The translations under genes and the position numbers were made by a program. From contig JAUXFG010000055.1 of assembly GCA_030620115.1 (NCBI GenBank), positions 1-23,049 on the forward strand: a DNA stretch of 23,049 nt. Reading direction: 5' to 3'. This document shows, in pieces, positions 1-23,046 of this stretch (the first letter of the stretch is position 1; each line of letters begins with the position of its first letter). The notes under the pieces are model-generated. The model saw only the letters and a program-made list of their open reading frames with translations. It was not told where the DNA came from and made no database searches. Source of the DNA: Candidatus Fermentibacterota bacterium (GTDB taxonomy: Bacteria; JAFGKV01).

Positions 1-201
1 CGTTGATCCGTGGGATCTGAAAGGTAGCCTTGAATCCCGCTTCCAGCGGGAAACTCTGAACCTGTGAACGCCTACACATAGCCCAAGCTGACTTCAGGCA
101 ACCCTGAACGGTGAACCCTGAACCTATGAACCTTTCAACCCGTGAACGGTTACGCTGTGTGTAACACCACACCGTGATCCTTGGTTCTCCCTGGCCCAAA
201 C
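1..201. other. Non-coding stretch with GAACC-type degenerate short repeats
   Basis: I see no gene here. There is a perfect 7-bp hairpin (TCCCGCT / AGCGGGA, loop TCC) at 35-51. Between 55 and 150 a degenerate word of the form CTGAACC / GTGAACG recurs about eight times. Near 149-165 a GTTAC...GTAAC inverted pair shares the core TTACGCTGTG with the hairpin at 1663-1688. The stretch looks like decayed intergenic repeat sequence downstream of the nuoM-like gene. Open frames here have no recognisable protein features. Confidence 0.5.
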
Positions 202-396
202 TTCTGACCATCTTTCGGCTGCAAACACCGATATGGCTCTGTCTGCTACGTTACGCTCCGTCGGCCTCCAGATACTTCGCTGTCGCTCAGCACAGGCTCC
301 TCGCAGAGGATACGCCTGCGGGGACCTCGGTCGCAAGCCTCGCATCCAAACCCATCTCGGCGGTTTCGCCACTAAAGCCGGTAAGAAGTCCGGGCC
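202..396. repeat. Dispersed repeat R1, copy 1 (about 195 bp)
   Basis: This stretch matches 19241-19453 in the same orientation. Shared blocks include TCGGCTGCAA..CCGATATGGC near the start, TCGCAGAGGATACGCC in the middle, TCGCAAGCCT, then TCGGCGGTTTCGC and AGAAGTCCGGGC at the end. Copy 2 differs by small indels and a 20-40 bp insertion in the middle. Short frames that read through it on either strand are repeat translation rather than genes. The last 25 bp (372-396) overlap the 3' end of the nuoM-like gene, so this copy supplies that gene's final codons and stop. Confidence 0.8.
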
Positions 397-1469
397 ACGA
401 TCTTGCTCAACGATCGACAGAGACCTGCCGTGGTAAGCACTACACCACCCAAAGCAATCACGCCGATCCCGATACCTGCAAGCAAATCACTCCCCAATGC
501 CGTCATCCACACATTCCCCGCGGGGGTTCCCGGCCAAGGGATTGCAGCGCAGATAGCAAGGACATGCATGGATCTGAGCCTTGGAACTGTGCGATATGCC
601 TCGGCCCACGTGGAGAGATCGGTGCTCCCGAGCTCCCCCTGTGTTCTTGTCCCCCATATCGTCAGTACGGCAAGGACCACCGCGCTATGGACGAGATGAG
701 GACCAAGAAGTCCCTGACCGCCCAAAGCAAGACCAATGAGCCCCAATCCCAAATACACCTGAGCGACATGACCGGCAAGCGGACCGACCTTCCACTCCGT
801 TTGCAGCCAGAATCCCCCGCTGATCACGGAAACAGCGCCAAGCCCCGCAATGGCCACCACCAGTTCGGACCCCACATGGGAAACGAAAATCACGTAGTAG
901 CGGGATATGGCCCAGAGACTTGTCGGAAGAAACAGCGCCAAGAAGACCGCCAGCGGCCCTCCATCGAGGCGACGGGCCGTGCGTCTCAGAGAGAATGGGA
1001 ATGGGAAGATACCCAGCCTCAAGGCGATGATTGCCGGCAGAAGAACCACCGAGATTCTCTTCCACAGGCCAGCAGCATGCGGGAACCCCGCCGCGGACAG
1101 CATCCGTTCCGCGCCATGCCCGAGGCTTTCCGCCCCCGGGCCATCTGATGCTCCAACGTGCCAATTCCCCATGGCAGCAACCAAGAAAACGCTCATGGCA
1201 AGAAGCAGAATGCTCGATGAATGCTGCTGGATCTGAAGGATCCTTCCTGACTTGCTTGCAGTACGCCCTCCCTCCAACCGAACCAAGAGAGTGAGCCCCG
1301 CACCCGCAATCATCCAAGAGAGCAGAATGACTCCGATGTGAAAAGACAGGGCCTGCGCCAGGGATCCTCCAACCACGATTCCCACCACGGTCATCACCCT
1401 CCACCCCGGAACAGGTTTTTCGCTGGATGCGCTCATGCATGGAACCCCATCACGCAGCTTCCGTAACAC
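372..1469 (-). CDS. NuoM-like antiporter subunit, divergent and C-terminally short
   Basis: This polytopic membrane protein (365 aa, about 9-10 hydrophobic segments) aligns by eye with NuoM, the proton-pumping complex I subunit. PWPGTPAGN (311-319) sits where NuoM has LGMPGTGNFVGE. ALRLGIFPFPF (149-159) sits where NuoM has AVKMPVVPLH, with Arg151 at the essential Lys. SWM (51-53) replaces the FWE motif, so the TM5 Glu is absent. LVHSA (259-263) matches the conserved TM8 His region. NuoM is normally about 480-510 aa; here both ends are short. The last seven residues (ARTSYRL) and the stop lie inside repeat R1. The start is uncertain: GTG at 1469, or ATG at 1436, neither with a well-spaced Shine-Dalgarno. 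It is last in a nuoJ-K-L-M order. Family membership is fairly firm; proton-pumping activity is doubtful. Confidence 0.7.
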   Translation of the reverse strand: MLRKLRDGVPCMSASSEKPVPGWRVMTVVGIVVGGSLAQALSFHIGVILLSWMIAGAGLTLLVRLEGGRTASKSGRILQIQQHSSSILLLAMSVFLVAAMGNWHVGASDGPGAESLGHGAERMLSAAGFPHAAGLWKRISVVLLPAIIALRLGIFPFPFSLRRTARRLDGGPLAVFLALFLPTSLWAISRYYVIFVSHVGSELVVAIAGLGAVSVISGGFWLQTEWKVGPLAGHVAQVYLGLGLIGLALGGQGLLGPHLVHSAVVLAVLTIWGTRTQGELGSTDLSTWAEAYRTVPRLRSMHVLAICAAIPWPGTPAGNVWMTALGSDLLAGIGIGVIALGGVVLTTAGLCRSLSKIVARTSYRL

Positions 1470-1551
1470 TCCTGCCGCATAGAAATCCTCCCATCCTGCC
1501 TCCTATCTCTTGGTCCTTGCTCCAGCAATCCCACATTCCGAAATCAGACAA

Positions 1552-1612
1552 TTCGAGATTCTTCCCAATCCCCACCCAGATTCTTCGGTCGCTCCGCTCC
1601 CTCAGAATGACA
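1552..1612. repeat. Dispersed repeat R2, copy 1 (CAGATTCTTCG...CTCAGAATGACA)
   Basis: The core CCCAGATTCTTCG..C.CTCCGCTCCCTCAGAATGACAC matches the right edge of the window (about 23004-23046) in the same orientation with only two or three differences. The similarity extends weakly leftward through a second AGATTCTT word. Related short repeats are scattered between genes in many environmental bacterial genomes (general knowledge). It lies in the 284-bp gap between the nuoL-like and nuoM-like genes. Confidence 0.75.
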
Positions 1613-1650
1613 CGTGTTGTCACATCCAACACCAACCACCTTCTCTCCAT

Positions 1651-1728
1651 TCCAGCCGGAATGTCGGGTTACGCTGTGCTAACCCGACCTACATTGCTCC
1701 ATCATCTCAACGCTGAACGCTGAACGCT
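1651..1728. repeat. GTCGGGTTA hairpin repeat and AACGCTG tandem
   Basis: A perfect 9-bp inverted repeat (GTCGGGTTA 1663-1671, TAACCCGAC 1680-1688, loop CGCTGTGC) is followed at 1709-1728 by three near-copies of AACGCTG. The hairpin resembles a class of dispersed palindromes rather than an intrinsic terminator, because no T-run follows it on either strand. Together with R2 it fills most of the gap between the nuoL-like and nuoM-like genes. Confidence 0.6.
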
Positions 1729-1753
1729 ATCTTCGTTCCATTCCCCCATTCCC

Positions 1754-3475
1754 CTACCGCCCTCCGCCAAAGAACCACGCAGCCGCAATGAGAAGGCCTG
1801 TCACTGTTGCAACGACCGCCGGTGATCCTGCGGCACGCCGAGAGAATGAGCCTGCGACATCAACCAGTTGCGCGGGGATCAACCTGATATGCGTGAGCAC
1901 AATCCGCTCTATCCAGGCGATGTACGTGGCCATCCCTACGAGCGCCCGTCGTGGACCAAAGAGTGTTATTCCCTGCCAAGCAAATCGTTCCAATGCCACC
2001 CAGATCACTGCCACCACATCCGCTACAGGAACCACCCACGAGGATATGACCCGGTTGAAACGCTCCTCCATGGTACACAAGTAGCCTCCAGAGAGCTGCG
2101 GGATCATCGAGAAGAGCACATTTCGAAGCATGAAGCCAAGCAACAAGACGGCTCCGGTGACAAGCCATGGCACAGGGCTTCTCGGGAAACTGTAGTGAGT
2201 CTTGGGCGTCCAAAATGGCATGCTGGATAACAAGAACGAACATACCACAAGAAGAAGGATAATCCCAGTGCCTGCCCACAGCCGCCAGTTGTTCTTCCCG
2301 CTTCGATTCCAGGCCATTGATACGCCAACCGAGAAGACGCCGAGAAGAGAACCCATCCATGTCCACGGACCGTGCGTCTGCATCAAGGAGGAATAGGGAG
2401 TCAAAAGCAGAAATGATCCAATGAGCACAAGGATTGTCACCCCATTCGAAGCGAACTGTCGAAAAAACACCGTGGGCATCCACAGGAGTGCCCACATGAG
2501 CGCCCCCGCAGGCAGTTTTGCACCCAGGAGGGCCAATGTCCCCCCGGAGAGAATCAGCATATGCCGACTGGGCGCATCTGGATTTCGGAATCCGGCCCAA
2601 GCCATGCCTGTGAGCCCAAAAAGCGTCAAGAGAAGGGCAGACCCGCCCCGCATGCCCAGCTCGGCCAAGGGATATATCTTCAATAAGAAAAGCGGACCTG
2701 CCACTGCCCCAAGACCACAGGCATGGTTGATTGTGCCCACCGGCATGAGAGCCACCGAGAAAACCGCCAACGCGATCAGGACCGGAAACAAAACAGAGAG
2801 AGACACATGCCCAAAACCAATAATAGAGAGGGTGGCATGTCTGATTTGCGATAACCCATCAACATCCATCGCCCCACCATGGCCCGCCACGCCGTACAAT
2901 TCGCCAAACCCTCCTTGCGCGGCCAACGCCGCACATAGAATCCCCACCGAAAATACAGAGATCCCCGCCGCAACTGCTTCCTTCGAGCACACGCCAACCT
3001 GCCCACGCGACCCTGCGGCGGAGCAGTTGACCGGATCCATGGCCGATGCAAGCCCGGCAGCACACACAAGGGACCACGACAGGAGAAGTAGCTCAACACT
3101 GTTGCAGAGCATCAATCCCAGGATACCAAGGATCGCTACTGATGTACTTCTCCGTCTCCTTCTTCCTTCAGGCGCGATACTCAATAGGAGAAAGCACCCC
3201 AGCCCAAGAAGAATACTGAAGGAATTCCAGGTTCCCCAGTGGTTTCCCCTTACCTGTGGAGTGAAACCTCGCCAGATACCCCTCAGCGTGCCCGACCCTC
3301 CAATCCACGCAGAGGATGCGTCGGAGACCAGCACGATCTCGAGGAAAAGCAAGGAGGCGGCCACAACCCAGCTGGAGATGCGCACAATCTTGGAATGAAA
3401 TATCGAAACGAGTGCAAAAACCAGCGCAATGCCGGGAATCACTGCATGTACCAATGGAATAGAATCAGCCGGCAT
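1754..3475 (-). CDS. NuoL-like antiporter subunit, divergent
   Basis: A 573-aa protein with roughly 13 hydrophobic segments, near the usual 600-660 aa of NuoL. Its order of features fits NuoL. LLLSWSLVCAAGLAS (131-145) stands where NuoL has YLGWEGVGLCSYLL, so Ser135 replaces the conserved TM5 Glu. ALAVFSVALMPVGTINHA (235-252) stands where NuoL has GKSAQLPLQTWLADA, so the TM7 Lys is lost. WMPTVFFRQFASNGVTI (332-348) matches THAFFKALLFLASGSVI, with Arg for Lys and no His. The C-terminal 130 residues include a long amphipathic stretch as in the lateral helix region. ATG start, with GAGGGA about 14 nt upstream. It follows nuoK by 60 bp and precedes the nuoM-like gene by 284 bp of repeats. Membership rests on weak similarity plus gene order. 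Confidence 0.7.
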   Translation of the reverse strand: MPADSIPLVHAVIPGIALVFALVSIFHSKIVRISSWVVAASLLFLEIVLVSDASSAWIGGSGTLRGIWRGFTPQVRGNHWGTWNSFSILLGLGCFLLLSIAPEGRRRRRSTSVAILGILGLMLCNSVELLLLSWSLVCAAGLASAMDPVNCSAAGSRGQVGVCSKEAVAAGISVFSVGILCAALAAQGGFGELYGVAGHGGAMDVDGLSQIRHATLSIIGFGHVSLSVLFPVLIALAVFSVALMPVGTINHACGLGAVAGPLFLLKIYPLAELGMRGGSALLLTLFGLTGMAWAGFRNPDAPSRHMLILSGGTLALLGAKLPAGALMWALLWMPTVFFRQFASNGVTILVLIGSFLLLTPYSSLMQTHGPWTWMGSLLGVFSVGVSMAWNRSGKNNWRLWAGTGIILLLVVCSFLLSSMPFWTPKTHYSFPRSPVPWLVTGAVLLLGFMLRNVLFSMIPQLSGGYLCTMEERFNRVISSWVVPVADVVAVIWVALERFAWQGITLFGPRRALVGMATYIAWIERIVLTHIRLIPAQLVDVAGSFSRRAAGSPAVVATVTGLLIAAAWFFGGGR

Positions 3476-3535
3476 TGCTCAGACTACTTCCCTCTGGACA
3501 GATTGTCTCTCGAAAAGTGCGAAATCCCAAAAGGA

Positions 3536-3802
3536 TCAAGATGATCGCTCCCTTTGCCCACCGTCCGGTCCGGACTTAGGCAGCTCGAGAGCAACAAGAT
3601 AGGCCAACAACGCAAGGCTCGCCGCCAAGGCAAACGTCCACTGCGTGCCTTGAAAGCACGCGGCCTGTGCCGCAGCAAGCCCCGACACCCCGATCAGGAA
3701 TACCGGCCCCCCTAACTCCCCCATGGTGCGAGCCGCAGCCAGAGACCAGATGCCTATGGCAAAAAGAAACATGGCCATGGACAGCGCCCACACAGGACTC
3801 AT
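3536..3802 (-). CDS. NuoK-like small membrane subunit
   Basis: An 88-aa protein with three hydrophobic segments, close to the usual 100 aa of NuoK. The first segment (FLFAIGIWSLAAAR, 12-25) resembles ILFVLGLTGLVIRR. The third (FALAASLALLAYLVALEL, 57-74) resembles [21 protein letters not shown]. The two membrane glutamates that NuoK needs, in the GLE and AAAE motifs, appear absent: the only acidic residues before the tail are Glu29 and Glu73 at segment ends. The start ATG overlaps the stop of the NuoJ-like gene by 4 bp (ATGA), the usual nuoJ-nuoK arrangement. Too short and divergent to name with certainty; order and topology carry the call. Confidence 0.6.
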   Translation of the reverse strand: MSPVWALSMAMFLFAIGIWSLAAARTMGELGGPVFLIGVSGLAAAQAACFQGTQWTFALAASLALLAYLVALELPKSGPDGGQRERSS

Positions 3803-4272
3803 CTTCCAGCCTCGCCTGAACTGCGTGCAAAAAGGATCCCCACAGCTACCACCCCTATTGCCACCAAGACACCAACAGTGACGGGCTTGTCAGCAAGCGG
3901 CCGCGGCCAAACGTGGCCCCGAAAAACCTGAACCGAGAAGACAAAGAGTAGCGATGCTAGACCGAGTTTCGCCACCCCGGCTCCTGCACGCGGCCATTCC
4001 AGATTTTTCCTACGCCGCAATAGACGCTCGATGCAGCCAGCACATACTATGCTCACGGAAAGCGCCGCCAGTTCTCCTCTCAGGAAAGGAGTGAGAGCGA
4101 GAAGAAGAACCAGGCACGAGCCTATCCACGGGCGAAGATGGGCCGCGCTCTTCGACACAAGCAGCATTGTCAGGAGTGCGATCAGAAGTAATGCAACGAT
4201 GGCCAGTCTACACCTCCCGTGGATGATCACCTTGGCTGGCCAATGGATCCAGCGCTTGCGCGATTGGGGCAA
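3799..4272 (-). CDS. NuoJ-like membrane subunit
   Basis: A 157-aa protein with about five hydrophobic segments (NuoJ is usually 160-190 aa). Residues 62-82 (PFLRGELAALS through VCAGCIE) align with NuoJ GAYFAGALEIIVYAGAIM, the TM3 region that couples quinone chemistry to the membrane arm. The motif Tyr appears as Cys and a run of RRRK (87-90) ends the helix early. The C-terminal segment (VTVGVLVAIGVVAVGILFAR) matches the last NuoJ helix. The TTG at 4272 has no Shine-Dalgarno; a GGGAGG at about 4220 precedes a possible CTG start that would put TM1 at the N-terminus as in other NuoJ proteins. It overlaps the NuoK-like gene by 4 bp and follows spoIID by 159 bp. Confidence 0.55.
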   Translation of the reverse strand: MPQSRKRWIHWPAKVIIHGRCRLAIVALLLIALLTMLLVSKSAAHLRPWIGSCLVLLLALTPFLRGELAALSVSIVCAGCIERLLRRRKNLEWPRAGAGVAKLGLASLLFVFSVQVFRGHVWPRPLADKPVTVGVLVAIGVVAVGILFARSSGEAGR

Positions 4273-4431: not shown

Positions 4432-6003
4432 TCATTCCACATTGACCAGCACGCCGAGTGTTGTCTTTGGATAGTAGAAAGCAACGATCTCCTCAGCGGA
4501 GGAACCCTGTTGCGCCATGGCCCGGGCGCCCCACTGCGAGAGACCCACTCCGTGACCGAATCCTTCGCCTTCGAGTTGCAACTCCGACCTCGACATGGTC
4601 GGCCGTGCTCTCGTGCTTTTCATCTTTCCTGGACCAACAAATCCACGGAATCGATCACCACGCAGATCCGTCGTACCGTGCCGTCCTTCAACCCGGGCAG
4701 TCTTGAACCGGCCCGACACCCCCCTGTCCAAGAAAACAACTCGTTTCAGCTTCTCCACCGTGGCGCCTCGCTTGCGAAGAATGCTCTCCAATTCCTTCAA
4801 CCGGATGGAATATTCCCATGGCTTCGAAGGACTATATGGGTTCTCCCGACCCTTGAGATACGGCAACCCTGCACCCCAGACATTCTCCATATCCTCGGTA
4901 TGCCCTCCACTGGATGAGTGAAAGAGCGTCAAAGCAAGCTCACCCTGGTACAGAAGCACACGCCCCTTGGTTCTCTGCACCGCCTCGTCAGTACGGGAAT
5001 GCCAGGCATCGGCGCCTCCATATACTTGGGATGAGACTGTGGAAAGCAAATCATACTGGTAGTCGGTTCTCCTCGCTTTCTGGTACATGGCATATGTCCT
5101 GGCACAGATCGCCTGCGCGGCAAGGCCCTCCTCTGGCCATGAAGCCGGCATCTCCTTGGGGACTACCCCACGCAGATACTGTTCGAGATCCACCACATTG
5201 ATCACAAGCAGGTTCCCACGCGAGTGGAGAACCCTCAGTCGACCTGGAAAGGATACTCCATCAAAAGAAAGCCGTGCATCTCCAAGCGGTCGGAATTCCA
5301 GTTCTGATGCGTCGGTGGCTTTGCCATCAATCTGCATACCCGATGAGGCCCCGTCTACCGTCACGGTCCCGTCTTGGAGCTCTTGAGCCTTCCTGGAGCC
5401 GTCCTTTGCAATTTCCCACATCCCCCCCTGGCAAGAAAGCCGAAGCCGTGCGTGACCCTTGGCTACTGCCACACGAAGCAGAGTGCTTCTTGCAGGCAAT
5501 TCATTCCTCTCAACCGCTTCCGGCTCAACGAGATGCGCAGGCAGGCGTGAGAGCCTTCGGCATTGGTCGCGCAGGAACTCGGCCGTAGGGGTATTGACCC
5601 CTCCTGGCTCAAGCTCTATGCTGCGCTCGAACGCCTCAGCAGCCTCCTCGTATCTCTGCTGTTCATGATAGAGCATACCAAGCTTGAAAAACGCACGTGC
5701 ACCCAGAGGCCCATCCGGATCGAGAGCCACTGCCTTCTTCAGATGAGCTTCTCCATTCTCATAGTCGTCGAGGAATAGAAGGAGAATCCCTCCCATCTTC
5801 AGGTGAGCACTGGCCTGCCACTGGATGGGGAAGGCCTCATCCGTGAGCTGCTCATAGGCCGTGAGAGCCTCCAGAAAACGCCCCTCCTTCAACAGGATGG
5901 AGGCTTCACCATGGATGAGGGGCGCGATTGCGGGGAAAGCGGGCGAAGGAAGCAGCAGTCCAAGGAGCAGGAGGGCGGAAGGAGGCTTCAGAGGACTGCT
6001 CAA
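4432..6003 (-). CDS. TPR-SpoIID/LytB domain protein
   Basis: A 523-aa exported protein. A signal peptide (residues 1-25, ending near PAFPA) is followed by TPR-like helices (about 30-135, with PLGARAFFKLGMLYHEQQRY and ALDPDG-type boundaries) and a SpoIID/LytB domain (about 170-523). The catalytic motif VVPKEMP carries Glu284, the acid of SpoIID lytic transglycosylases. FHSSSGGHTED (361-371) and GEGFGHGVGLSQWGARAMA (479-497) are the other family signatures. In spore formers SpoIID cuts denuded glycan strands; in Gram-negative bacteria such proteins probably remodel septal or side-wall peptidoglycan. The start is TTG, overlapping the upstream stop as TTGA, with GGAG about 10 nt upstream, which implies translational coupling to the LPP20-like gene. 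Confidence 0.9.
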   Translation of the reverse strand: MSSPLKPPSALLLLGLLLPSPAFPAIAPLIHGEASILLKEGRFLEALTAYEQLTDEAFPIQWQASAHLKMGGILLLFLDDYENGEAHLKKAVALDPDGPLGARAFFKLGMLYHEQQRYEEAAEAFERSIELEPGGVNTPTAEFLRDQCRRLSRLPAHLVEPEAVERNELPARSTLLRVAVAKGHARLRLSCQGGMWEIAKDGSRKAQELQDGTVTVDGASSGMQIDGKATDASELEFRPLGDARLSFDGVSFPGRLRVLHSRGNLLVINVVDLEQYLRGVVPKEMPASWPEEGLAAQAICARTYAMYQKARRTDYQYDLLSTVSSQVYGGADAWHSRTDEAVQRTKGRVLLYQGELALTLFHSSSGGHTEDMENVWGAGLPYLKGRENPYSPSKPWEYSIRLKELESILRKRGATVEKLKRVVFLDRGVSGRFKTARVEGRHGTTDLRGDRFRGFVGPGKMKSTRARPTMSRSELQLEGEGFGHGVGLSQWGARAMAQQGSSAEEIVAFYYPKTTLGVLVNVE

Positions 6004-6908
6004 AAGAATGTCTCTCCCGCGAAAACCACCTTGCAGTTCTTGAGCAGGGAACCGGCGGCGTCGGCAGCCCTCAAACGTTCCCCTTCCGCCGCGGAGATAA
6101 CAAGATCAGCGCCGGTCGCCCCGTGGGATGACTCGGCAGTGACCACCAATGGATGGTCACCGATACGCTCCTTGAGCGACTCCGCCTGTCCCAGGTCCGC
6201 GGCATAGGCCACCATGCCGATCTCGGCCGCCACCTCGAGATCGACCTGTTCAACACAGAGCGCCGCCTCCAGTGCTTCCAGAACCAAAAGCCTTGGCGCC
6301 ATGGCCGGGATTGCCTCGAGATTGCCGGCATCCACGATGATGCCCGTACAAGTCGGCTCCTTTTCCTTATCATCAAAGCTGAATACCGGTATCGGTCGAT
6401 CCACCGCCTTGGCCATGGCATGTTCCAGCACAGGCTGACCGAGGCCTCCCTCCCCATGGAGGGGAAGCCTCATCCATACCCGCGCAAGGATCGATCCATC
6501 CTGTAGCCTTACGCGGTCTTCCTTACAAATCTCGGCGCCACGGATCAAACCAAAGGTCTTTGTCCGAAGCGTACTCGATCGAAGCAGCTCGTTTCTTAAG
6601 GTAGTCTCCCCGTCCACTGCAATGCCATGGACCATTTCAGCGAGCTTCTCCTGCGCCAAAACGATGGCAGCTCGTCTCGCCGAGACATAGCAGTCCGTTT
6701 CGGAAAGCGCCACTTCCATATCGCATCCCGCTTCGCCGATGACCTCGATGTATCCGCCGGCCCACAGGACATTGCCCACCGCAGCATGGGTGGCCTCACC
6801 GGATGAAATGGCCTTCTCTTGCTCGGCGAGCTCCTCTTCCCACCAATCGCCGCCCATGGCGGATGAAACCGCCACGCAGACAAGCAGCAAGCTCAGGATT
6901 TTTCTCAC
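6000..6908 (-). CDS. LPP20-like exported protein
   Basis: A 302-aa protein with a signal peptide (about residues 1-18, VAVSSA then MGG). The region around 50-105 (GYIEVIGEAG, then ARRAAIVLAQEKLAEMVHGI) resembles the LPP20 family, small envelope domains of mostly unknown role. A C-terminal module (about 188-300: TGIIVDAGNLEAIPAMAPRL, DHPLVV, GADLVIS, LLKNCKVVF) often accompanies LPP20 in deltaproteobacterial and FCB proteins. No lipobox is seen, so it is probably periplasmic. I chose GTG at 6908 because GGAGGT lies 6 nt upstream; GTG at 6914 touches that Shine-Dalgarno. It overlaps the SpoIID gene, suggesting a joint role in the envelope (inference). Confidence 0.7.
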   Translation of the reverse strand: MRKILSLLLVCVAVSSAMGGDWWEEELAEQEKAISSGEATHAAVGNVLWAGGYIEVIGEAGCDMEVALSETDCYVSARRAAIVLAQEKLAEMVHGIAVDGETTLRNELLRSSTLRTKTFGLIRGAEICKEDRVRLQDGSILARVWMRLPLHGEGGLGQPVLEHAMAKAVDRPIPVFSFDDKEKEPTCTGIIVDAGNLEAIPAMAPRLLVLEALEAALCVEQVDLEVAAEIGMVAYAADLGQAESLKERIGDHPLVVTAESSHGATGADLVISAAEGERLRAADAAGSLLKNCKVVFAGETFF

Positions 6909-6941
6909 GCGCACACCTCCGGTGGCTGGATCAGTTAGCCA

Positions 6942-7049: not shown

Positions 7050-10000
7050 CTACTTCATCACCGCGATCTTGCGTATCTTTTCCACAGTTGATTCGCCGAG
7101 AGGAGATACTCTGACAAGGCAGATGTACCCTCCATTGCCCACGACCTCGCCATCTTGATTCCTGCCATCCCATTCCACGACATTGGTGCCTCGGCGGCCT
7201 CCGGATTCTCCCTCCATACACGAGGTGCTCCACACCGCATTGCCGAGGAGATCATAGACATCAAGCTCGACTTTGGAGTCCATCAGGAGCACATATTGTA
7301 TTCGGGTCACCTCCCGCCCCGCGGCGAACGGATTGGGGTAGTTGATCAACCCTTCGATGGTGCTCTGCGGCAGAATAATGAACTCCCATTCCTCACGACA
7401 ACGAGTCTCCAGGCCATCACGATCAATGGCCCAGACCCTCCAATACACACTGCCCCGATCACTGAACGGGGAATCAGGCGTCCAGCACGTCTGAGAGAGA
7501 TCCGGTATGATCACCAACGTGGGGAACAGAGGATCAACGTCGTGTTCGATTCGGTAGACAATCCGATCCAGTGGATCAGGATCCAGGACCGGCTGCCAGC
7601 ACATGGTTGGCTGCAGCGTGCTCAGCGTACACCCATGGCACGGTGATACCAGGTCGAAAACAAGCGGCGGCTCGTTCAAATCATTGGTGGCAAACCACCA
7701 CTTCTCCTCTGAGCTTGTTATCGCTCCCCGGCTGTCCGTCGCGGTGACGCGCCATGTATAGATGCGATTGTCGGCGAGGCTATCGCCCAATGCCGTCAGG
7801 GCCTCTCCAAGATGGAGCGCAGCAGCGTTTCCCGATTCCAGCTCGAAGAGCCCGCCTGACCATCCCGGATCCGCCGGGTGAATGCTGTCGAACAGCGCCA
7901 CACAATACGTCACCTCGTCCAAGGGATCAGGATCGGGCGCGGGCTGCCAGATCAGCTGAAGCGTATCCATCTCTGCCTGATGGAGCACTACCTGATGCCC
8001 CGGAGAGAGGAGGTGGAAGGTCGCTGGACCATCATTGCCGCGATCCGTGGTGAAGACCCAGAGCTCTTGGCTCCATTTCTCCGCGCCGTTGGTATCGCGT
8101 GCCAGCACGCGCCAATAGTGAGTCATATTATCCCTGAAGGTCCATTGGCTGCGCCAGGAGGTAAGTGTATCAACACTAATGGTCGTCGCGGTCGCAAGGC
8201 TGAATAATGTGTCCACGTGGATCGTATACCTCACCGTGTCCAACACATCCTCGTCAAACGATGGAGTCCAGGCGAAAAAGACCGAATCAGGATGTACGAG
8301 CGCCCCATCGGAAGGCGCCAGCAGATGGAAGTCCATGGGCACGTCGTTGCCGTCTATATTGGTCACGAACCACCATGTATCGAGGCTGGTGGTGGTCTCG
8401 GGCCCCAAGCTGTCGGTGGCCTCAACGAACCATGTGTAGCGGCTGTCGTCCTGCAGTGCCTCTGTCCAATCCTGATCGGTCAGCGTGGTATCGCGTCCCG
8501 CATGTACACTCGTCGCCTCTTCCCCGTCCAAGTGATACCAGACATCATAAAGCACCCGATCACCGGCATCGATATCCCGGGCGGACTCCCATGTGAGAAG
8601 GGGCTTGAAAACGGTGACCGTACTCCCAGTGACCGGAGAGATGAGAAAAAACCCGGCGGGAGGCTCATTTACGTTCTCGATGGCAAAAATGCCGGAAACG
8701 TCCTCTGCTTCCGCCAACGCCGTATCCCTCACCACGGCCCTGATCTGATACTCCAGACCGTCCATCACGCTCTCTGTGTCCCAATCCCTCACGCCCGTAT
8801 CCGCCAGGCCCAGGACGATGGGAACCCAATCTCCCTCTGTTGAGCTGCGGAAGTACAGTGATACGGCGATGCTGTCGCCCCATTGCAGATCAGGGTCGTC
8901 CGCCTCCCATGTGATAGCCTCGATTCCCTTCCAAATATCGCCGGTCTGAGGAGAAAGGATGGAAATGGTCGGGGGATCATTGTTGTTGAAAAGAAGGAAT
9001 GACTCGTCAGACTGATCCGTGCGAGAGAGAGAATCCGTGTCAGTCACCCGAACCCGGATACGGAACCAATCGCCATCCGGCAGCTCATACGCGCCCGTAT
9101 CCCACAGGAAGCTCCCCGGGAGCCCCGGAATTCCATCCGCCAGCAGCAAGGGCTGGAAGCCGGTGGCAAGGCTCGAATCGACCCACACGGTGGCAGACAG
9201 AGTATCACCCACAAACAGATCGGGATCGTCCGCCTCCCAGCGGACCTCATGCACACCGGACCAGTGTTCCCCCCCATTGGGCGAAATCACGGTAACGGTG
9301 GGATTATCGGGATTGTTGAAAATCGAAAAGGTGGTATCGGATTCATCACAGACCGTGATCTGTTGCCTGTCAGTGGCGCAGGCCCGCACGAGGTAGGTAT
9401 TGCCATCGTCCAGAGAGCTGATATTCCAAAGCCACGAGCCGGTATTCGGAAAGCTCTCCACCAGAGGGGGACTCCATGACTGCCCGCTGTCCGCGCTGAA
9501 GAATAGAGAGATAGCGACCGTGTCTCCAATGTCGGAGTTCGGGTCCGACGCGGACCACTGGATCAGAATCTCATCACGTAGGCTCTCCCCGCCGTTTGGA
9601 GAAAGCAACTGCATCGCGGGAGGATCGTTCTCATTGAGCACAAAAAACACACCGTCTGATATGTCGCAGACTTGCGTACCGATGAAGGTATCCGTCACGC
9701 ACACGCGGACGAGATAATCAGCACCATCCGGGAACTGCTCCTGATACGTGTTCCACTCCAGGTGTCCCGAGTTCGGCAATCGGGTGGCCAGAGTAATCCA
9801 GTTTGCGCCACTATCCGGTGAAACCTCCACCAACGCAGCCAAAGTATCGCCATACTCAAGATCGGGATCATCAGCCTCCCAGAGAATGATCTGCGTATCG
9901 TTCCAGAATTCGCCGCCATTGGGGGCAAGAACAGTCACGGTGGGAGGATCCGGCGGATTGATGATGAAGCACGTATCAGACACGTCGATGCCGGTGAGAT

Positions 10001-12392
10001 TTCCCCGGTCTATTGCAACCACCTGCATCTCATACCAGCCCGCCGGTATCAAGCCGGTATCCCAGACATAGCTCCCCGTGTTCTCCAAAGTCGAGTCCAA
10101 AGGCGTCCAGAAGGGTGGATTATCCGGGATACATCGTCGATAGTTGAGCTTTATGGTGAGGGAATCGAGGATGTCAGGGTCGTGCGCATACCAGCGCACC
10201 GTCTGTTCCCCATACCACATCTCACCGCCGTTGGGCGAAATGAGGAGTACGGAATCCGGAGGATCATTGTTATCAATGGTGAAGGGAGCGTCTGATTGAT
10301 CTTCGGCCCATAATCCCAAAGGATCCGTGACCCTGAGCTTCACAAGGTAATCATCGCCGTCCGCCAGCTCATTGATATTCCAGAGTTCCTCCCCATCGTT
10401 GCTAATGCTGCCCACGGAGATGCCGAACCATTGGCCTCCGGCGTTCGGGGAGTAAGAGAAATCGATTCTGAGGGTCAGAGGCAGCTCACCATAGTTCGAA
10501 TCCGGGTCCGCAGCGGTCCATCTGATGAGATACTCCCCCAGAATCACTTCGCCGCCATTGGGCGCCAATACGGTGATGAAAGGAGGATCATGGACATTGA
10601 TAGTGAATGGTTGGACGATTGCGGTATCCGCATGTCCGGCAGGATCCCTGGCAATTGCCCGCAGGAAGTAGGCCATCCCCTCCGGAATCCCTGAAAGATC
10701 CCAGAGAAGCGAACACGGTTGTGTGGCGCTGTTCTCCACCTCATCTATCAAACTCCACGGCGTGAACCGATCCCTGTAGCTCAGATTGATGAGGAGATCC
10801 TCGGTCTCGTCCCCATCCGGATCGGCCCCACCGGGAACCTGATCGTCCGTGGCATTCCATTTGATCCATGCCTCATCCTCCAACACATCGCCAGGGCCGG
10901 GGGCAAGAAGGGTTATAGTGGGCCTGACCGCTTCAATGAGCTCATCAGGAGGATAGAAGTAGGTCGTATTGTCCTCAATGATGGGACCGAAGCCGTCGGG
11001 AGGGGCCGCGGAGTCCCAAACCTTCACCATCATGTTTCTGATACTCTGGCCTGCGTACACACCCCATCCGCCGGGTGGTTCGGGAATGGAGAAGTAATAG
11101 GGCGCGGGACTGCCGGGGGGGTCACCGTACACAGTCAAGTTCACGGTCTGGACCTCCGCCTCCCCGATCCGGTACTGCAGTGTTCCACGGACCGAAAACC
11201 CACCGCCCCAGTATTCGAGCTCAATATCGTCGACTTCTATGCTCCCTGTCCACGGGCCCGGGGTCTCCTCTGTCAGGTCCGCCGCTGACCAATTGTTCAG
11301 CCCGGGCAACCAATGATCCGCCACGCTCGTCACCGGCGCACCGAATTGGTACTCTCCGAACTGATTCTCATGCCCTACTCTGAACCAGTACTGAGCCCCA
11401 TCGCTGAGCCATCCCACGGACGAGGAGCCATATGTGGACGGCGCCGTCACATCTTGCTCCCCTTCCGGAGGATCGAAGTTCTGATCCCGATCCCACTGGA
11501 TCCTGAAGTTCGTAGACCGTTCGCCGCCTTCCCCGCCTCCCTTCCGCGCCGCAGCCTCCGGACCACTCTCACCGGCAAACGGTAGTTCCATCTCCTGGCC
11601 TACGGCTTCCACCAGCTCAAGGAAGTTCTGATAGCTTTCGTTGTACCACCAAGAAGGGTCGAACTCATGGGGCAATGCGGCATTGTCGTATCCGTGGACC
11701 CGTATGGTCAGATACTCACCGGCTATGGAACCCCAGCCACCGCCAGGCTCGGGAATGGAGAACGAGTACAAATCGCCTCCCTCCCAACTCATGGAGAGGT
11801 CAGGCCCCTGCTGGCCGCCATAAAAGGGGATCACCATGCCACGAAGCACACCTGACTCGTAGTCCACTATCTCCACTGTGCCCGTTGCATCTCCTGAGTA
11901 CCCCGCGTGCACGTTGGTACATTGGAACGTATTCCCGCGTATGTAAGGCCCCACATTGTCCTGGACCGACGTTCTCTGACTGTACTGGTCCAGGGGATCA
12001 GGAACCGAGTTCACCTGATACCTGACCAGAGAACCATGAATCAGGAAACTGAACGGGAAGCCAGCGTCCGGATAGTAGAAATCATAGCTCGTATTGCTCG
12101 TAGTAGTCCATTCGATGAAATCCGGTTTGGAGAAGTAGATCACATTGTCCCCGCCCCGGGTAAAAAAGGGCTCATTGAACGCGATGCCGCTATCCGGACC
12201 TGCCAAAAGACATCTGACGCGGTAGGAGGACGCCCCCGTGGAGTTCCACGAAATATTGTTGAACAACTGGCCGCCTTGATCCGTGGTGGCTCCCGGCTCA
12301 GGATGGATGTAGGGCGGCGTTGACCGGGCGGTCCCGGCCAGACATGCCAAAAAAGCAAGAACCGCGAACGAGAATCTCCACATATGTGTCAT
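7050..12392 (-). CDS. Giant secreted Ig-like repeat protein with FlgD-type CTD
   Basis: A 1780-aa secreted protein. A signal peptide (about residues 1-24) precedes an N-terminal region with an internal duplication (FSIPEPGGGWGS near 210 and FSIPEPPGGWGV near 435). Then come seven Ig-like repeats of about 105-120 aa (from about 490), most opening with LAPNGGE or LSPNGGE and continuing as WEADDPD. Four related repeats opening with LLSP or LVSP follow, with WxPxxDxDxLD. The last 100 aa are a FlgD/type IX-like domain starting NYPNPF and ending IRKIAVMK. Such C-terminal domains direct or anchor surface secretion in FCB bacteria. Cysteine pairs recur in repeats 4 and 5 (VRVC...VC, VRAC...VC). The ATG at 12392 has GAGGGG 4 nt upstream and is preferred to GTG 12404. 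It lies 30 bp after the barrel gene, probably in the same transcript. Likely a surface or adhesive protein; no enzyme domain seen. Confidence 0.85.
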   Translation of the reverse strand: MTHMWRFSFAVLAFLACLAGTARSTPPYIHPEPGATTDQGGQLFNNISWNSTGASSYRVRCLLAGPDSGIAFNEPFFTRGGDNVIYFSKPDFIEWTTTSNTSYDFYYPDAGFPFSFLIHGSLVRYQVNSVPDPLDQYSQRTSVQDNVGPYIRGNTFQCTNVHAGYSGDATGTVEIVDYESGVLRGMVIPFYGGQQGPDLSMSWEGGDLYSFSIPEPGGGWGSIAGEYLTIRVHGYDNAALPHEFDPSWWYNESYQNFLELVEAVGQEMELPFAGESGPEAAARKGGGEGGERSTNFRIQWDRDQNFDPPEGEQDVTAPSTYGSSSVGWLSDGAQYWFRVGHENQFGEYQFGAPVTSVADHWLPGLNNWSAADLTEETPGPWTGSIEVDDIELEYWGGGFSVRGTLQYRIGEAEVQTVNLTVYGDPPGSPAPYYFSIPEPPGGWGVYAGQSIRNMMVKVWDSAAPPDGFGPIIEDNTTYFYPPDELIEAVRPTITLLAPGPGDVLEDEAWIKWNATDDQVPGGADPDGDETEDLLINLSYRDRFTPWSLIDEVENSATQPCSLLWDLSGIPEGMAYFLRAIARDPAGHADTAIVQPFTINVHDPPFITVLAPNGGEVILGEYLIRWTAADPDSNYGELPLTLRIDFSYSPNAGGQWFGISVGSISNDGEELWNINELADGDDYLVKLRVTDPLGLWAEDQSDAPFTIDNNDPPDSVLLISPNGGEMWYGEQTVRWYAHDPDILDSLTIKLNYRRCIPDNPPFWTPLDSTLENTGSYVWDTGLIPAGWYEMQVVAIDRGNLTGIDVSDTCFIINPPDPPTVTVLAPNGGEFWNDTQIILWEADDPDLEYGDTLAALVEVSPDSGANWITLATRLPNSGHLEWNTYQEQFPDGADYLVRVCVTDTFIGTQVCDISDGVFFVLNENDPPAMQLLSPNGGESLRDEILIQWSASDPNSDIGDTVAISLFFSADSGQSWSPPLVESFPNTGSWLWNISSLDDGNTYLVRACATDRQQITVCDESDTTFSIFNNPDNPTVTVISPNGGEHWSGVHEVRWEADDPDLFVGDTLSATVWVDSSLATGFQPLLLADGIPGLPGSFLWDTGAYELPDGDWFRIRVRVTDTDSLSRTDQSDESFLLFNNNDPPTISILSPQTGDIWKGIEAITWEADDPDLQWGDSIAVSLYFRSSTEGDWVPIVLGLADTGVRDWDTESVMDGLEYQIRAVVRDTALAEAEDVSGIFAIENVNEPPAGFFLISPVTGSTVTVFKPLLTWESARDIDAGDRVLYDVWYHLDGEEATSVHAGRDTTLTDQDWTEALQDDSRYTWFVEATDSLGPETTTSLDTWWFVTNIDGNDVPMDFHLLAPSDGALVHPDSVFFAWTPSFDEDVLDTVRYTIHVDTLFSLATATTISVDTLTSWRSQWTFRDNMTHYWRVLARDTNGAEKWSQELWVFTTDRGNDGPATFHLLSPGHQVVLHQAEMDTLQLIWQPAPDPDPLDEVTYCVALFDSIHPADPGWSGGLFELESGNAAALHLGEALTALGDSLADNRIYTWRVTATDSRGAITSSEEKWWFATNDLNEPPLVFDLVSPCHGCTLSTLQPTMCWQPVLDPDPLDRIVYRIEHDVDPLFPTLVIIPDLSQTCWTPDSPFSDRGSVYWRVWAIDRDGLETRCREEWEFIILPQSTIEGLINYPNPFAAGREVTRIQYVLLMDSKVELDVYDLLGNAVWSTSCMEGESGGRRGTNVVEWDGRNQDGEVVGNGGYICLVRVSPLGESTVEKIRKIAVMK

Positions 12393-12421
12393 AGTGCCCC
12401 TCACACCAGGATGTCGTTTCC

Positions 12422-13183
12422 CTAGAACATGCTTATCAATGTAAGCTCAATTCCCTCGAATTCCGGCTCGATCCTGCAGGCGCCTCCTGCGCAGACCTTA
12501 CCCTCGGGTCGTGAGCCTACCAAAAGACGGAGTTGATGGCCCTGGGCCAGGTCAAGGAAAAGCTGCCCATACACCCAGACAGTCCTCTCAGAGAATACTT
12601 GCAGCCACGGCAGGTCCTGCTGCATGGACGAGACATTGCTCCATTCCCCCACCAACGCCAAGGAGATCCCGGGCGACTTGGTCAGCTCGACTTCCACACG
12701 CTCGAGATCATACTCCCCCACCGCATCGCCGTCCGCGTGCTGGTGCCCGACCACCAGCTTGCCGCTCCAGGCGCCGGCAATAGGGAAATTTCCTTCCGCC
12801 ATGGCCGTCACATAGACTCGCCGGTCTTCCACTTCCTCCTCGCCCGAGGCAACCCCGAGATACTCCTCGCTGCGCCCTGCCACTGCATGGATCGGGCACG
12901 ACGAGAGCTCCCACAGCCTCGCTTCAACCGTGATTTCCTCGAAAAGACTTATCCCACCATGATTTTCCGCAGAGACATAGGTCCCCGCAAAGCCCGCGTT
13001 ATCACCGACCTGATATTCCAGGTGCGCCAGGAAACCACGTTCGTCATCGACATCGAGCTCCCTGGATTGCTTTGACAGCAGCGCCCATACGTGCTCAGGC
13101 AGTGCAGCCGGTGGATTTGAATACTCCCTGCCTTCCGCCTTGAGACTCATCTGCTCATAGTCCTTGTATTGGAGACTGAACCC
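12422..13183 (-). pseudogene. DUF6029-like outer-membrane barrel, C-terminal part (frameshifted)
   Basis: This is the downstream half of the protein that begins at 13844. In this frame YSNPPAALPEHVWALL and ELDVDDERGF match my memory of DUF6029-type barrels (NNPPALVPEH, LDADNERGY), and LFEEITVEARLWEL continues the beta-strand alternation. The protein ends in VCAGGACRIEP...ELTLISMF, a barrel-like final strand ending in Phe preceded by a C-x4-C pair. The frame is open further upstream (to 13408), but that part is arginine- and tryptophan-rich nonsense and a shadow of the other half. Joined at the G-run 13181-13184, the two halves give about 473 aa. Confidence 0.7.
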
Positions 13184-13844
13184 CGCGCCCATCATCCTTC
13201 TCCCCATCCTTAGTTCGATGCGCAACCTCGGCATACAGATCCACAGGCCCCAGCATGATCTGCCCACGCCCACATCCAAGCTCAACGCTTGGCTTTTGAT
13301 ACCCGGTGGTGAAGACTTCACGGCGAGAGACATAGCTCCCGCCCACAGTGAGCCATTCCACTGGATGCAGCTCCCCATCACCTGCGTGAAAGACCTGCGA
13401 CTCCCCATACGTTCTTCCCGAGAAAGCCGTGAGGGCCGCCTGATCGTGAGTGAACGAGAGTTTCAGCCCATCCAGTGAAGTATCGACCCTGAGCTCTCTG
13501 TCTTCGTACCCTCTATATGCAAGACCCCGGCCCAGCAGAGCATAGAAGTGCCCCACCCGAAGATCGAAACCGTCCTTCGCCACACCAATAGACCGGAAGA
13601 CCAGTCCTTCCCGATCTCTGGCTCCCTCCGAGGGCTGAAACACCTCGTAACGGAGCCTGGCAAGGAATGGGCCATTTCCATAATCGATATCGAAGTAGTT
13701 TTCCAGAATCTCTTCGCTGGTTTCACTAGAGATCGAGTAATCCAATCGATTGCCCACCGACACGGTCCCACCCGCGAGTCCCGCATAGGCGAGCACACCG
13801 GTCGTCCGGATCAAAAACAATGCAGTGAGGAGTATGTATCTCAC
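13155..13844 (-). pseudogene. DUF6029-like outer-membrane barrel, N-terminal part (frameshifted)
   Basis: A signal peptide (about residues 1-19, ending VLAYA) is followed by alternating beta strands: NYFDIDYGNGPFLARLRYEV, FDLRVGHFYALLGRGLAYRG, ELRVDTSLDGLK. These fit an outer-membrane barrel of the DUF6029 type; the function of the family is not known to me. After VAHRTKDGEKDD the reading frame becomes nonsense and stops at 13155. Dropping one G from the GGGG run at 13181-13184 continues sensibly as GRGFSLQYKDYEQMSLK. The GTG start overlaps the tlpA stop (GTGA), with GAGGAG about 10 nt upstream, so translation is coupled to tlpA. It may be a true pseudogene, an assembly error or a slippage site. 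Confidence 0.75.
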
Positions 13845-16918: not shown

Positions 16919-19231
16919 ATGACATCTAAGCGGCACCATGAAGACAAGTCAAGATCACCGGAGTCTCCCCGGGGGAGTTGGGCACACATCATCGTGGTTC
17001 TTCTTCTCTTGGGGCTCGCTGCTGCGCTCGGGTTCCAGCAGATCACGAACTATGACATATGGCGAAACCTGGCTGTCGGCCGATGGATCTGTGACCATGG
17101 CACATTCCCCACTCAGGAGTTTTTCTCCTTTACCGAGGCGGGCAAGTCTTGGACAGATTACGAATGGTTAGCCGAGCTTGCATTCTGGCGTGCCTTTCAA
17201 CTCGGCGATATGACAGGATTGGCCGGCTATCGAGCCCTGATTCTCTGGCTTCTGGGGGTCTTCCTATTCCTTGACTTTCGAAACAGGTACAAAGCACCCG
17301 GTTGGACCCTTTTACTGGCCTTCATCCCCGCGCTTGCTCTCTCCCAGTTCCGGCTGCTCGTCCGGCCCCACCTCCACTCATTCCTTCTTGCAGCAGTATT
17401 GATCTGGTGGCTGGGAAGAGCGAAAGGCCGGCGTCAGATAGTCGGGGTGGGCATTCTCTCCGCACTCTGGGCGAACCTCCACGCTGGTCATCTGGGTCTC
17501 CTCATCGTGGTGCTCGCCATTGCGGGGAGACTGATCTCAAAAGGACGAATAGGCGTCATGGCCGCGGCCTTGTGCGGGCTCTTGATCAACCCCTACTCGT
17601 GGAAAATCCTTCTGCCGCTGGTAGAGATCGTATCAGTACAGACCACCGAGAAACTCTTGGTGGCGGAATGGGCGCCCTTGGTTCCACGAGAGATGCCATG
17701 GTTCTGGGTCTATCTCGCGGCCTCATGTGGCTTGCTGGCGGTGCCGGGACGAAAGCGACGTCTCTGGGACGGGTTGCTCCTCCTCGTTTTCACGCTGCTC
17801 TCCCTCAAGTCCGTGAGAATGGTGGCGTACGTATTCCTCCTCGCCGTACCAGGCAATGCGGAAGGGCTCTTCCTTCTCGTTCGCAAGCTTCCCTCGCGTC
17901 GTATGTCCATGGCCCTGGGTTCTTTGGCGGCATGTCTTGTGCTCGTGACGATCCTCGTTTACCAACCCCTGTCAGCGGGGATCGCCGAACAAAACTACCC
18001 AAAAGCAGCCGCCGACTATGTCATTGAGAAGAATCTTCCTACACGCTGTCTCAATGACATGCATCAGGGTTCATACCTGGAATGGCGATGGTACCCGGAG
18101 CGCCGGGTTTACATGGACGGACGTACCGAGCTGTTCGCCGACTTGGCCTCTATGGAGCGCGCGGCCTGCGAAGATGTATCAAGTTGGCACTACTTCATTC
18201 AGGGCTTCGATATCAAAGGCGCCATTTTGGATTATCCGCGCCTTTGGCGGGGAGCCACCACCTCGACCCTCTACCCCCTCTTCCGCTTCTTGGGCTGGCG
18301 CGTGGTGGCCTGGGATGATGGTGGAGTGCTCCTGCTGGCCCCGGGTGACGACCGGGAGATCTGTTTTGCCCGAGACGGCTATCGAATGCTCGACCCTTAT
18401 GTGCTGGAACCGAAGGCCGGATCATTCACCGTGGACGAACGGGAGCAGTTCATCAGAGAGATTAACCGTGCCATGGGAGAAATACCATTTTCCACGCGTG
18501 CGCGCTATATCGCGGGGAATTTTCATGCCTCGGCCCACCGTCCTGCCACTGCCCTCACATTCTACGAGGAAATCGGTCCAAATGACCCTGATATTCATGC
18601 CCGAAAAGCATTAGCTCTGGAAAAACAGGGGAAAATCGAAGACGCATGCGCTGAATGGCAATCACAGTTGACCAGAGGCCTTGATCGGGAGATGGTATGG
18701 TTTCACCTGGGCCGCCTCAGCCTCCTCGCCGGAGAGAGGGAGGAGGCAGTCAAATACCTGGAGCGCGCGCTTCGCTCCGAGACTCCTCCCCCCGGGGCGC
18801 AGGCCCTCCTTGCCCAGGCCCGGAAGGTAAACGCAGATTCTGTTGCAGCCCGTCAACTGGCCGATCTGAGAAAACAAGGTACGCTCCTGGCGCATCGAGC
18901 GCTTCCACTCATGGCGCAAGCCAGGTGGCAGGAAGCACAACAGATGCTGGAGCAGGCTGTGGCCCATGCTCCCATGGCGCCGGAGATCCATCAGAACCTC
19001 GGCGTAACGCTGGCCAGCCAGGAGCTCTGGGAACAGGCTGAAGCAGAGATAAGGGAAGCACTCAGGCAAGACCCCTCACTGGGCTGGGCTCATTACAACC
19101 TTGCTGGGCTCCTCGTCACCGCAAGGGGAGATACCGTTGCCGCCCTGGATCATCTCCATCACGTTCTTCTCACCGCCTCAGACTCGACCCTTGTCCTCTT
19201 GAGCCGCAACTTCCTGTCGGAACTTGATTAG
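16919..19231 (+). CDS. GT-C-like membrane protein with C-terminal TPR domain
   Basis: A 770-aa protein. The first half (about 22-350) has 9-11 hydrophobic segments. Its first loop (NYDIWRNLAVGRWI, Asp46, then EWLAELAFW) matches the acidic loop motif of GT-C glycosyltransferase-like proteins. RPHLHSFLLA (149-158), WANLHAGHLG (184-193) and INPYSWKI are other signatures of this family. A soluble middle region has LNDMHQGSYLEWR and ERRVYMDGR. TPR-type helices occupy about 580-765 (for example MVWFHLGRLSLLAGEREEAV). GT-C enzymes move sugars from lipid carriers on the outer face of the inner membrane; the substrate is unknown. The ATG start has a weak Shine-Dalgarno. Its stop is 10 bp before repeat R1 copy 2. 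Confidence 0.75.
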   Translation: MTSKRHHEDKSRSPESPRGSWAHIIVVLLLLGLAAALGFQQITNYDIWRNLAVGRWICDHGTFPTQEFFSFTEAGKSWTDYEWLAELAFWRAFQLGDMTGLAGYRALILWLLGVFLFLDFRNRYKAPGWTLLLAFIPALALSQFRLLVRPHLHSFLLAAVLIWWLGRAKGRRQIVGVGILSALWANLHAGHLGLLIVVLAIAGRLISKGRIGVMAAALCGLLINPYSWKILLPLVEIVSVQTTEKLLVAEWAPLVPREMPWFWVYLAASCGLLAVPGRKRRLWDGLLLLVFTLLSLKSVRMVAYVFLLAVPGNAEGLFLLVRKLPSRRMSMALGSLAACLVLVTILVYQPLSAGIAEQNYPKAAADYVIEKNLPTRCLNDMHQGSYLEWRWYPERRVYMDGRTELFADLASMERAACEDVSSWHYFIQGFDIKGAILDYPRLWRGATTSTLYPLFRFLGWRVVAWDDGGVLLLAPGDDREICFARDGYRMLDPYVLEPKAGSFTVDEREQFIREINRAMGEIPFSTRARYIAGNFHASAHRPATALTFYEEIGPNDPDIHARKALALEKQGKIEDACAEWQSQLTRGLDREMVWFHLGRLSLLAGEREEAVKYLERALRSETPPPGAQALLAQARKVNADSVAARQLADLRKQGTLLAHRALPLMAQARWQEAQQMLEQAVAHAPMAPEIHQNLGVTLASQELWEQAEAEIREALRQDPSLGWAHYNLAGLLVTARGDTVAALDHLHHVLLTASDSTLVLLSRNFLSELD

Positions 19232-19240
19232 CCCGAATTT

Positions 19241-19453
19241 CTCACCAACTTCCGGCTGCAACCGCCGATATGGCCCCACCTGCTTCGTTACGTTCCATCA
19301 GCCTCCTCGACGTATCGCAGAGGATACGCCTTCGGGCTTCGCCACGGCGGAGCCAGGCTACGCCCTGACAGAGCCGGGGTCTTCCAGTCGCAAGCCTTGC
19401 ATTCGGAACCATTTCGGCGGTTTCGCTTCGAAACCCGGTGAGAAGTCCGGGCT
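19241..19453. repeat. Dispersed repeat R1, copy 2
   Basis: Same orientation as copy 1 (202-396), with small indels and an extra segment around 19331-19380. It starts 10 bp after the stop of the GT-C/TPR gene and ends in AGAAGTCCGGGC like copy 1. Frames through it give residues such as AKPPKWFRMQGLR, echoing AKPPRWVWMRGLR from copy 1; this shows shared DNA, not a conserved gene. Both copies touch the 3' end of a gene. Confidence 0.8.
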
Positions 19454-22990: not shown

Positions 22991-23046
22991 TCTCGCCCCA
23001 TCTCCCACCCAGATTCTTCGATCACTCCGCTCCCTCAGAATGACAC
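22981..23046. repeat. Dispersed repeat R2, copy 2
   Basis: This copy matches the R2 copy at about 1552-1612 on the same strand, sharing CCCACCCAGATTCTTCG and CTCCGCTCCCTCAGAATGACAC with a few substitutions. It runs to the window edge, so its full extent cannot be seen. Confidence 0.75.

Follow-up and report, generated by a model that had tools for sequence, protein, structure and literature searches.

A conserved J-K-L-M membrane gene cluster of Candidatus Fermentibacterota with a predicted antiporter-derived M protein that lacks the canonical proton path

Four adjacent membrane-protein genes that follow the order of nuoJ, nuoK, nuoL and nuoM of complex I raise the question of whether their products really descend from complex I, and of what they might do if the residues that carry protons in such subunits have been replaced. 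The genes lie in a stretch of 23,049 nucleotides (the window), which is the complete contig C131 of a Candidatus Fermentibacterota genome (G000, 4.1 Mb in 296 contigs), and we refer to them here as J, K, L and M:

3799-4272, minus strand: J, a 4-helix membrane protein of 157 aa
3536-3802, minus strand: K, a 3-helix membrane protein of 88 aa, NuoK-like in size
1754-3475, minus strand: L, a NuoL-sized membrane protein of 573 aa with ~14-16 helices
1470-1753, no strand: the L-M spacer, 284 bp rich in interspersed repeats
372-1469, minus strand: M, an antiporter-like (NuoM/MrpD-type) membrane protein of 365 aa as called

The initial annotation had described four adjacent minus-strand open reading frames in J-K-L-M order with a 4-bp overlap of J and K, and the coordinates agree with this description. 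The overlap spans positions 3799-3802, and the E. coli nuo operon also has a 4-bp J/K overlap. The absence of nuoA-I and nuoN from the window was likewise borne out, as none was found in Pfam scans of its other main ORFs. The products had also been said to fit complex I subunits by size and topology, which stands for the sizes and for the three helices of K but not for J, where hydropathy has four peaks in both orthologs compared with the five helices of NuoJ, nor for M, where ~9-10 helices are predicted instead of the 14 expected.

Among the four genes, a derivation from complex I is demonstrable by profile comparison for M only. We built an M profile from the three M proteins available (those of G000 and of two further genomes of the phylum, G001 and G002), and in hhalign it matched NuoM/MrpD with Prob 96.9, E=1.5e-10 and a score of 83.9, compared with a shuffle maximum of 24.2. 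Over the NuoM and MrpD sets, E ranged from 1e-6 to 1.5e-10, with reversed and shuffled controls scoring far lower. In a search of 386 genomes with the M profile, only nine of the 383 outside the phylum gave matches, all weak (E up to 6e-4), and all nine are NuoM, NuoN, Mrp or hydrogenase-type antiporter subunits as judged by their sequences. In Pfam, M of the window, G001 and G002 gave no match to PF00361 even at E=10, and the M and L profiles found nothing relevant among PDB sequences. VIA-align of the structure model of M ranks the complex I subunit M, MrpD and MbhH chains first, with Z of 8-11.6 across up to ~265 residues, and the TM7 and TM12 helix breaks in this low-confidence model are at the places expected of the antiporter fold; because the model is weak (pLDDT 49), we count the structural match as supportive only. 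With NuoM/ND4 and MrpD/MbhH, M shares a profile match over ~370 columns, the helix order from TM4 to TM13, the signature break after the TM7 Lys/Arg position and a PGT motif before TM12, but it is ~100-140 residues shorter and has no PF00361 match. These comparisons show M to descend from a NuoM/MrpD-type antiporter subunit.

We read the proton-path residues of M from the profile alignment with E. coli NuoM, whose key residues are E144, K234, K265 and E407. In the three M orthologs, E144 is replaced by Met, Val and Leu, and E407 by Val, Ile and Val, while K234 is Arg and K265 is Pro in all three. NuoM D135 aligns with a His (His44) that is invariant in the three proteins, as is the Arg at the TM7 Lys position (Arg151). 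The loss of proton-carrying residues from M that had been noted earlier, namely of the TM5 Glu and of the TM7 Lys to Arg151, therefore holds in all three orthologs. In Mrp and complex I, the proton axis consists of the TM7 Lys, the TM5 Glu, the TM8 Lys and the TM12 Lys (PMC7419157). Unlike NuoM/ND4 and MrpD/MbhH, M is without the TM5 Glu, the TM8 Lys and the TM12 charged residue and has Arg in place of the TM7 Lys, and thus it should not pump via the complex I/Mrp route. The alignment shows M to lack the known, canonical proton path. By homology M belongs to a known superfamily, but its residues do not satisfy the functional definition, which leaves it outside the proton-pumping class.

Some ion path in M could persist, because Arg151 keeps a positive charge and His44 is near the lost TM5 Glu. 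The module might on these grounds be a working ion transporter that was re-wired, with Arg151 substituting for the TM7 Lys and with His44 and His302 carrying protons instead of Glu and Lys. The invariance of Arg151 and His44, the alignment of His44 with NuoM Asp135 and the correctly placed helix breaks of the low-confidence model would all be consistent with such a path, but with an invariant Pro for the TM8 Lys and Val or Ile for the TM12 acid there is no central charged axis, and K has no membrane Glu either, so we consider a re-wired transporter unlikely. A further feature of M is the basic stretch RLGxFPFPFSLRRxARRLxGxPL at the TM7 break, which is invariant across the orthologs.

The N-terminal alignment shows that M of G001 and G002 starts with two extra helices that are missing from M of the window. 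The repeat-rich 284-bp L-M spacer stands where these helices occur in the other two genomes, its frame contains stops, and its repeats recur many times on contigs C183, C210 and C178 of the same genome. For the start of M, the ATG at 1436 is a more probable codon than the GTG at 1469, and a short frame lies at this position:

1433-1480, minus strand: a leader ORF of 15 codons behind GGAGG, read from the sequence and perhaps a chance occurrence

The TGA of this leader overlaps the likely M start codon as ATGA, and translational coupling of the leader and M is possible.

For J, K and L, the evidence of identity is of a different kind. Pfam and NCBIfam scans of J, K, L and M and their orthologs found no significant family, and the sole nuo hint was K against NCBIfam NuoK at E=0.065. 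In hhalign, J, K and L compared with 60 NuoJ, 53 NuoK and 39 NuoL sequences, respectively, scored within the shuffled controls (19.2 for J, where shuffles reach 21.2, and 14.1 for L, where shuffles reach 20-24). L was also within its shuffled controls against a mixed antiporter set of 64 sequences; against the NuoM/MrpD set it scored 22.5, slightly over the shuffle maximum of 18.1, yet with E=0.07. With the K profile run over 2582 ORFs, NuoK fills the first 13 ranks, but its score is equaled by 3 of 40 local shuffles, and the assignment of K as NuoK is only suggestive. MrpB and MrpC as identities of J and K gave no profile signal. The initial annotation had named all four genes nuoJKLM, and this was upheld for M by its profile match but not for J, K and L, whose profile scores are not above those of shuffles. 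The same division applies to two residue claims that it made: the predicted membrane helices of K are without internal Glu in either ortholog and Tyr is absent from the whole J protein in both the window and G001, in keeping with the reported replacement of both membrane Glu of NuoK and of the NuoJ TM3 Tyr, but the identities of K as NuoK and of J as NuoJ that those claims presuppose were not sustained.

Three candidate lines of evidence for L were rejected. The structure model of L (pLDDT 40.5) mostly matches unrelated helical bundles, with complex I L/N chains among the matches, and was set aside as evidence of identity because it is too poor. A match of L inside a 2048-aa frame in G050 (E=0.0015), the sole one outside the phylum in the 386 genomes, was taken as chance, and apparent L-to-NuoK matches were disregarded because sequence composition probably explains them.

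It is a serious possibility, if a doubtful one, that only M is antiporter-derived, with J, K and L unrelated or independently recruited and the complex I order a coincidence. Such a history would account for J, K and L being inseparable from shuffles in comparisons with deep NuoJ, NuoK and NuoL sets, for L being likewise inseparable with the mixed antiporter set, and for J and K doing no better against MrpB and MrpC, and it agrees with the four helices of J and with the poor L model. On the other hand, J-K-L shares its gene order, its relative sizes and a 3-helix K with NuoJ-NuoK-NuoL and MrpA-B-C, there is the weak NuoK signal, and L has a NuoL-like length and carries a local N-x3-LL-x3-W motif at TM4-5. 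Divergence fast enough to leave L only 33% and K and J 25% identical between genera could also have erased the signal. From order, size and topology, J, K and L may be what remains of NuoJ/K/L or of MrpB/C-like subunits; they differ from those proteins in having no significant sequence match, in the lack of a membrane Glu in K, and in the lack of Tyr and the presence of only four helices in J.

We next consider whether the cluster is maintained. It was found in all three genomes of the phylum examined (G000, G001 and G002), which represent two genera of one family. J-K-L-M is complete in G000 and G001, and in G002 the contig end leaves M and the C-terminus of L. Amino-acid identity between orthologs is 25-52% across the cluster, and the G001 proteins are 33% (L), 36% (M), 25% (J) and 25% (K) identical to those of the window. 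Identity is 54-74% at second codon positions and close to random (0.14-0.31) at four-fold sites, and the reading frames are intact in both genera, with long invariant stretches in M and in the L C-terminus. From the intact frames, the second-position conservation and the random four-fold sites, we conclude that the genes are under amino-acid constraint. NG86 dN/dS values are ~0.28-0.43 for M, ~0.38 for L and ~0.53 for J, and are rough because dS is saturated.

If the cluster were instead what is left of a complex I or Mrp operon in decay, with hardly any function or none, one could expect the loss of functional residues, the faster evolution of the cluster relative to its SpoIID neighbor (25-42% vs 47% identity) and the absence of two N-terminal helices from M of the window next to repeats. 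But no frame is broken in either genus even with synonymous divergence saturated, and the codon-position conservation and the long stretches that are invariant in M and at the C-terminus of L argue against neutral decay, which we regard as very improbable. The earlier proposal of a retained but altered role is supported by this conservation of frames, order and protein sequence between genera whose synonymous sites are saturated.

A search of these genomes for a second, canonical nuo operon did find a separate canonical system, although one of Mrp type and not a nuo operon. In G000, Mrp-type subunits and NuoH are on C183 and a Complex1_49kDa protein is on C210, and in G001 a Mrp/NuoH/49-kDa-type system is on C240. 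This Mrp/membrane-bound hydrogenase-type system has bona fide MrpD-like subunits, NuoH and a 49-kDa-type subunit, lies at a separate locus and reaches the Pfam cut-offs, whereas both NuoH and a hydrophilic arm are missing from the window cluster. Given this separate canonical system, the cells do not need the window cluster to supply a membrane arm for a known redox complex, and nothing was found in favor of an unknown redox complex as its partner. The two genera seem to differ in the 49-kDa-type subunit itself, hydrogenase versus non-hydrogenase, since that of G001 (C240, L058:2253-3572) has both CxxC pairs typical of [NiFe] hydrogenase (RVCGIC and DPCYSC) and that of G000 (C210, L045:1239-2351) is missing the C-terminal pair.

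Upstream of J in the window are three genes:

4432-6003, minus strand: a SpoIID-domain/TPR protein (Pfam PF08486, E=2e-29), directly upstream of J and the same neighbor in G001
6000-6914, minus strand: a 304-aa protein with no family assigned, also the same neighbor in G001 (301 aa there)
7050-12404, minus strand: an Ig-repeat protein of 1784 aa whose repeats are bacterial Ig-like domains, with a FlgD-like end (Pfam), conserved beside the cluster in G001

In G001, the order is Ig-repeat protein, 301-aa protein, SpoIID-TPR, J, K, L, M and then a sugar block, in which M is followed by a bacterial sugar transferase (PF02397), an LPG-synthase-type flippase (PF03706), a sugar-nucleotide epimerase and an IspE-type kinase; in G002 the same transferase, flippase and epimerase follow M. 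The window holds the upstream half of this block, and the downstream half is found in G000 on C178 in the same order, with a sugar-transferase ortholog (66% identical), the flippase, the epimerase and IspE. Window positions 1-131 match the end of C178 (L057 5289-5419) over 131 bp at 97.7% identity, and because this shared end repeat lies inverted, a join of C131 and C178 is plausible but not proven. Unlike complex I (NuoA-N), the cluster is without a hydrophilic arm, NuoH and NuoN and is flanked by SpoIID, Ig-repeat and sugar-transferase genes. The shared gene order may reflect common inheritance and not function, because the three genomes are all of one family.

The reading we prefer, with a probability of roughly 0.4, is that J-K-L-M is a conserved module in which M is antiporter-derived and without a known proton path, and which is probably structural or lipid-binding in envelope assembly, a function suggested by the gene neighborhood. 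A four-gene membrane module would thus be kept inside a cell-envelope gene block of the phylum. Because the gene order is tight and conserved, J, K, L and M would probably form one membrane complex, which would not pump protons by the known mechanism. Its most likely role would be that of a scaffold, structural or lipid-binding, in the service of the neighboring SpoIID and polyprenyl-phosphate sugar-transferase genes; it might, for example, keep lipid-linked, anionic sugar intermediates close to the invariant basic segment that M carries at its TM7 break. A more far-reaching version, in which the whole of J-K-L-M is a complex I-type arm that was stripped of its proton path and reused non-energetically in envelope polysaccharide assembly, coupled to SpoIID and the polyprenyl-phosphate sugar transferase, seems to us improbable.

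What antiporter-like subunits are known for is conducting protons or cations. A member that is conserved throughout a lineage and has lost all of the canonical conducting positions would show that the fold can persist in a different role, and it would be a naturally "dead" reference for studying how complex I couples its reactions, a mechanism still under debate. We found no description of such a cluster or case in the open-access literature, which is weak evidence given its partial coverage.

Two minor observations concern the rest of the window. Minus-strand ORFs at 12422-13408 and 13155-13844 overlap in different frames and match the two ends of DUF6029, and the pair is either one gene split by a frameshift or the result of a sequencing error. 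Repeats ~80-90% alike occur within the window at 194-395 and 19231-19452 and at 1564-1613 and 22997-23046.
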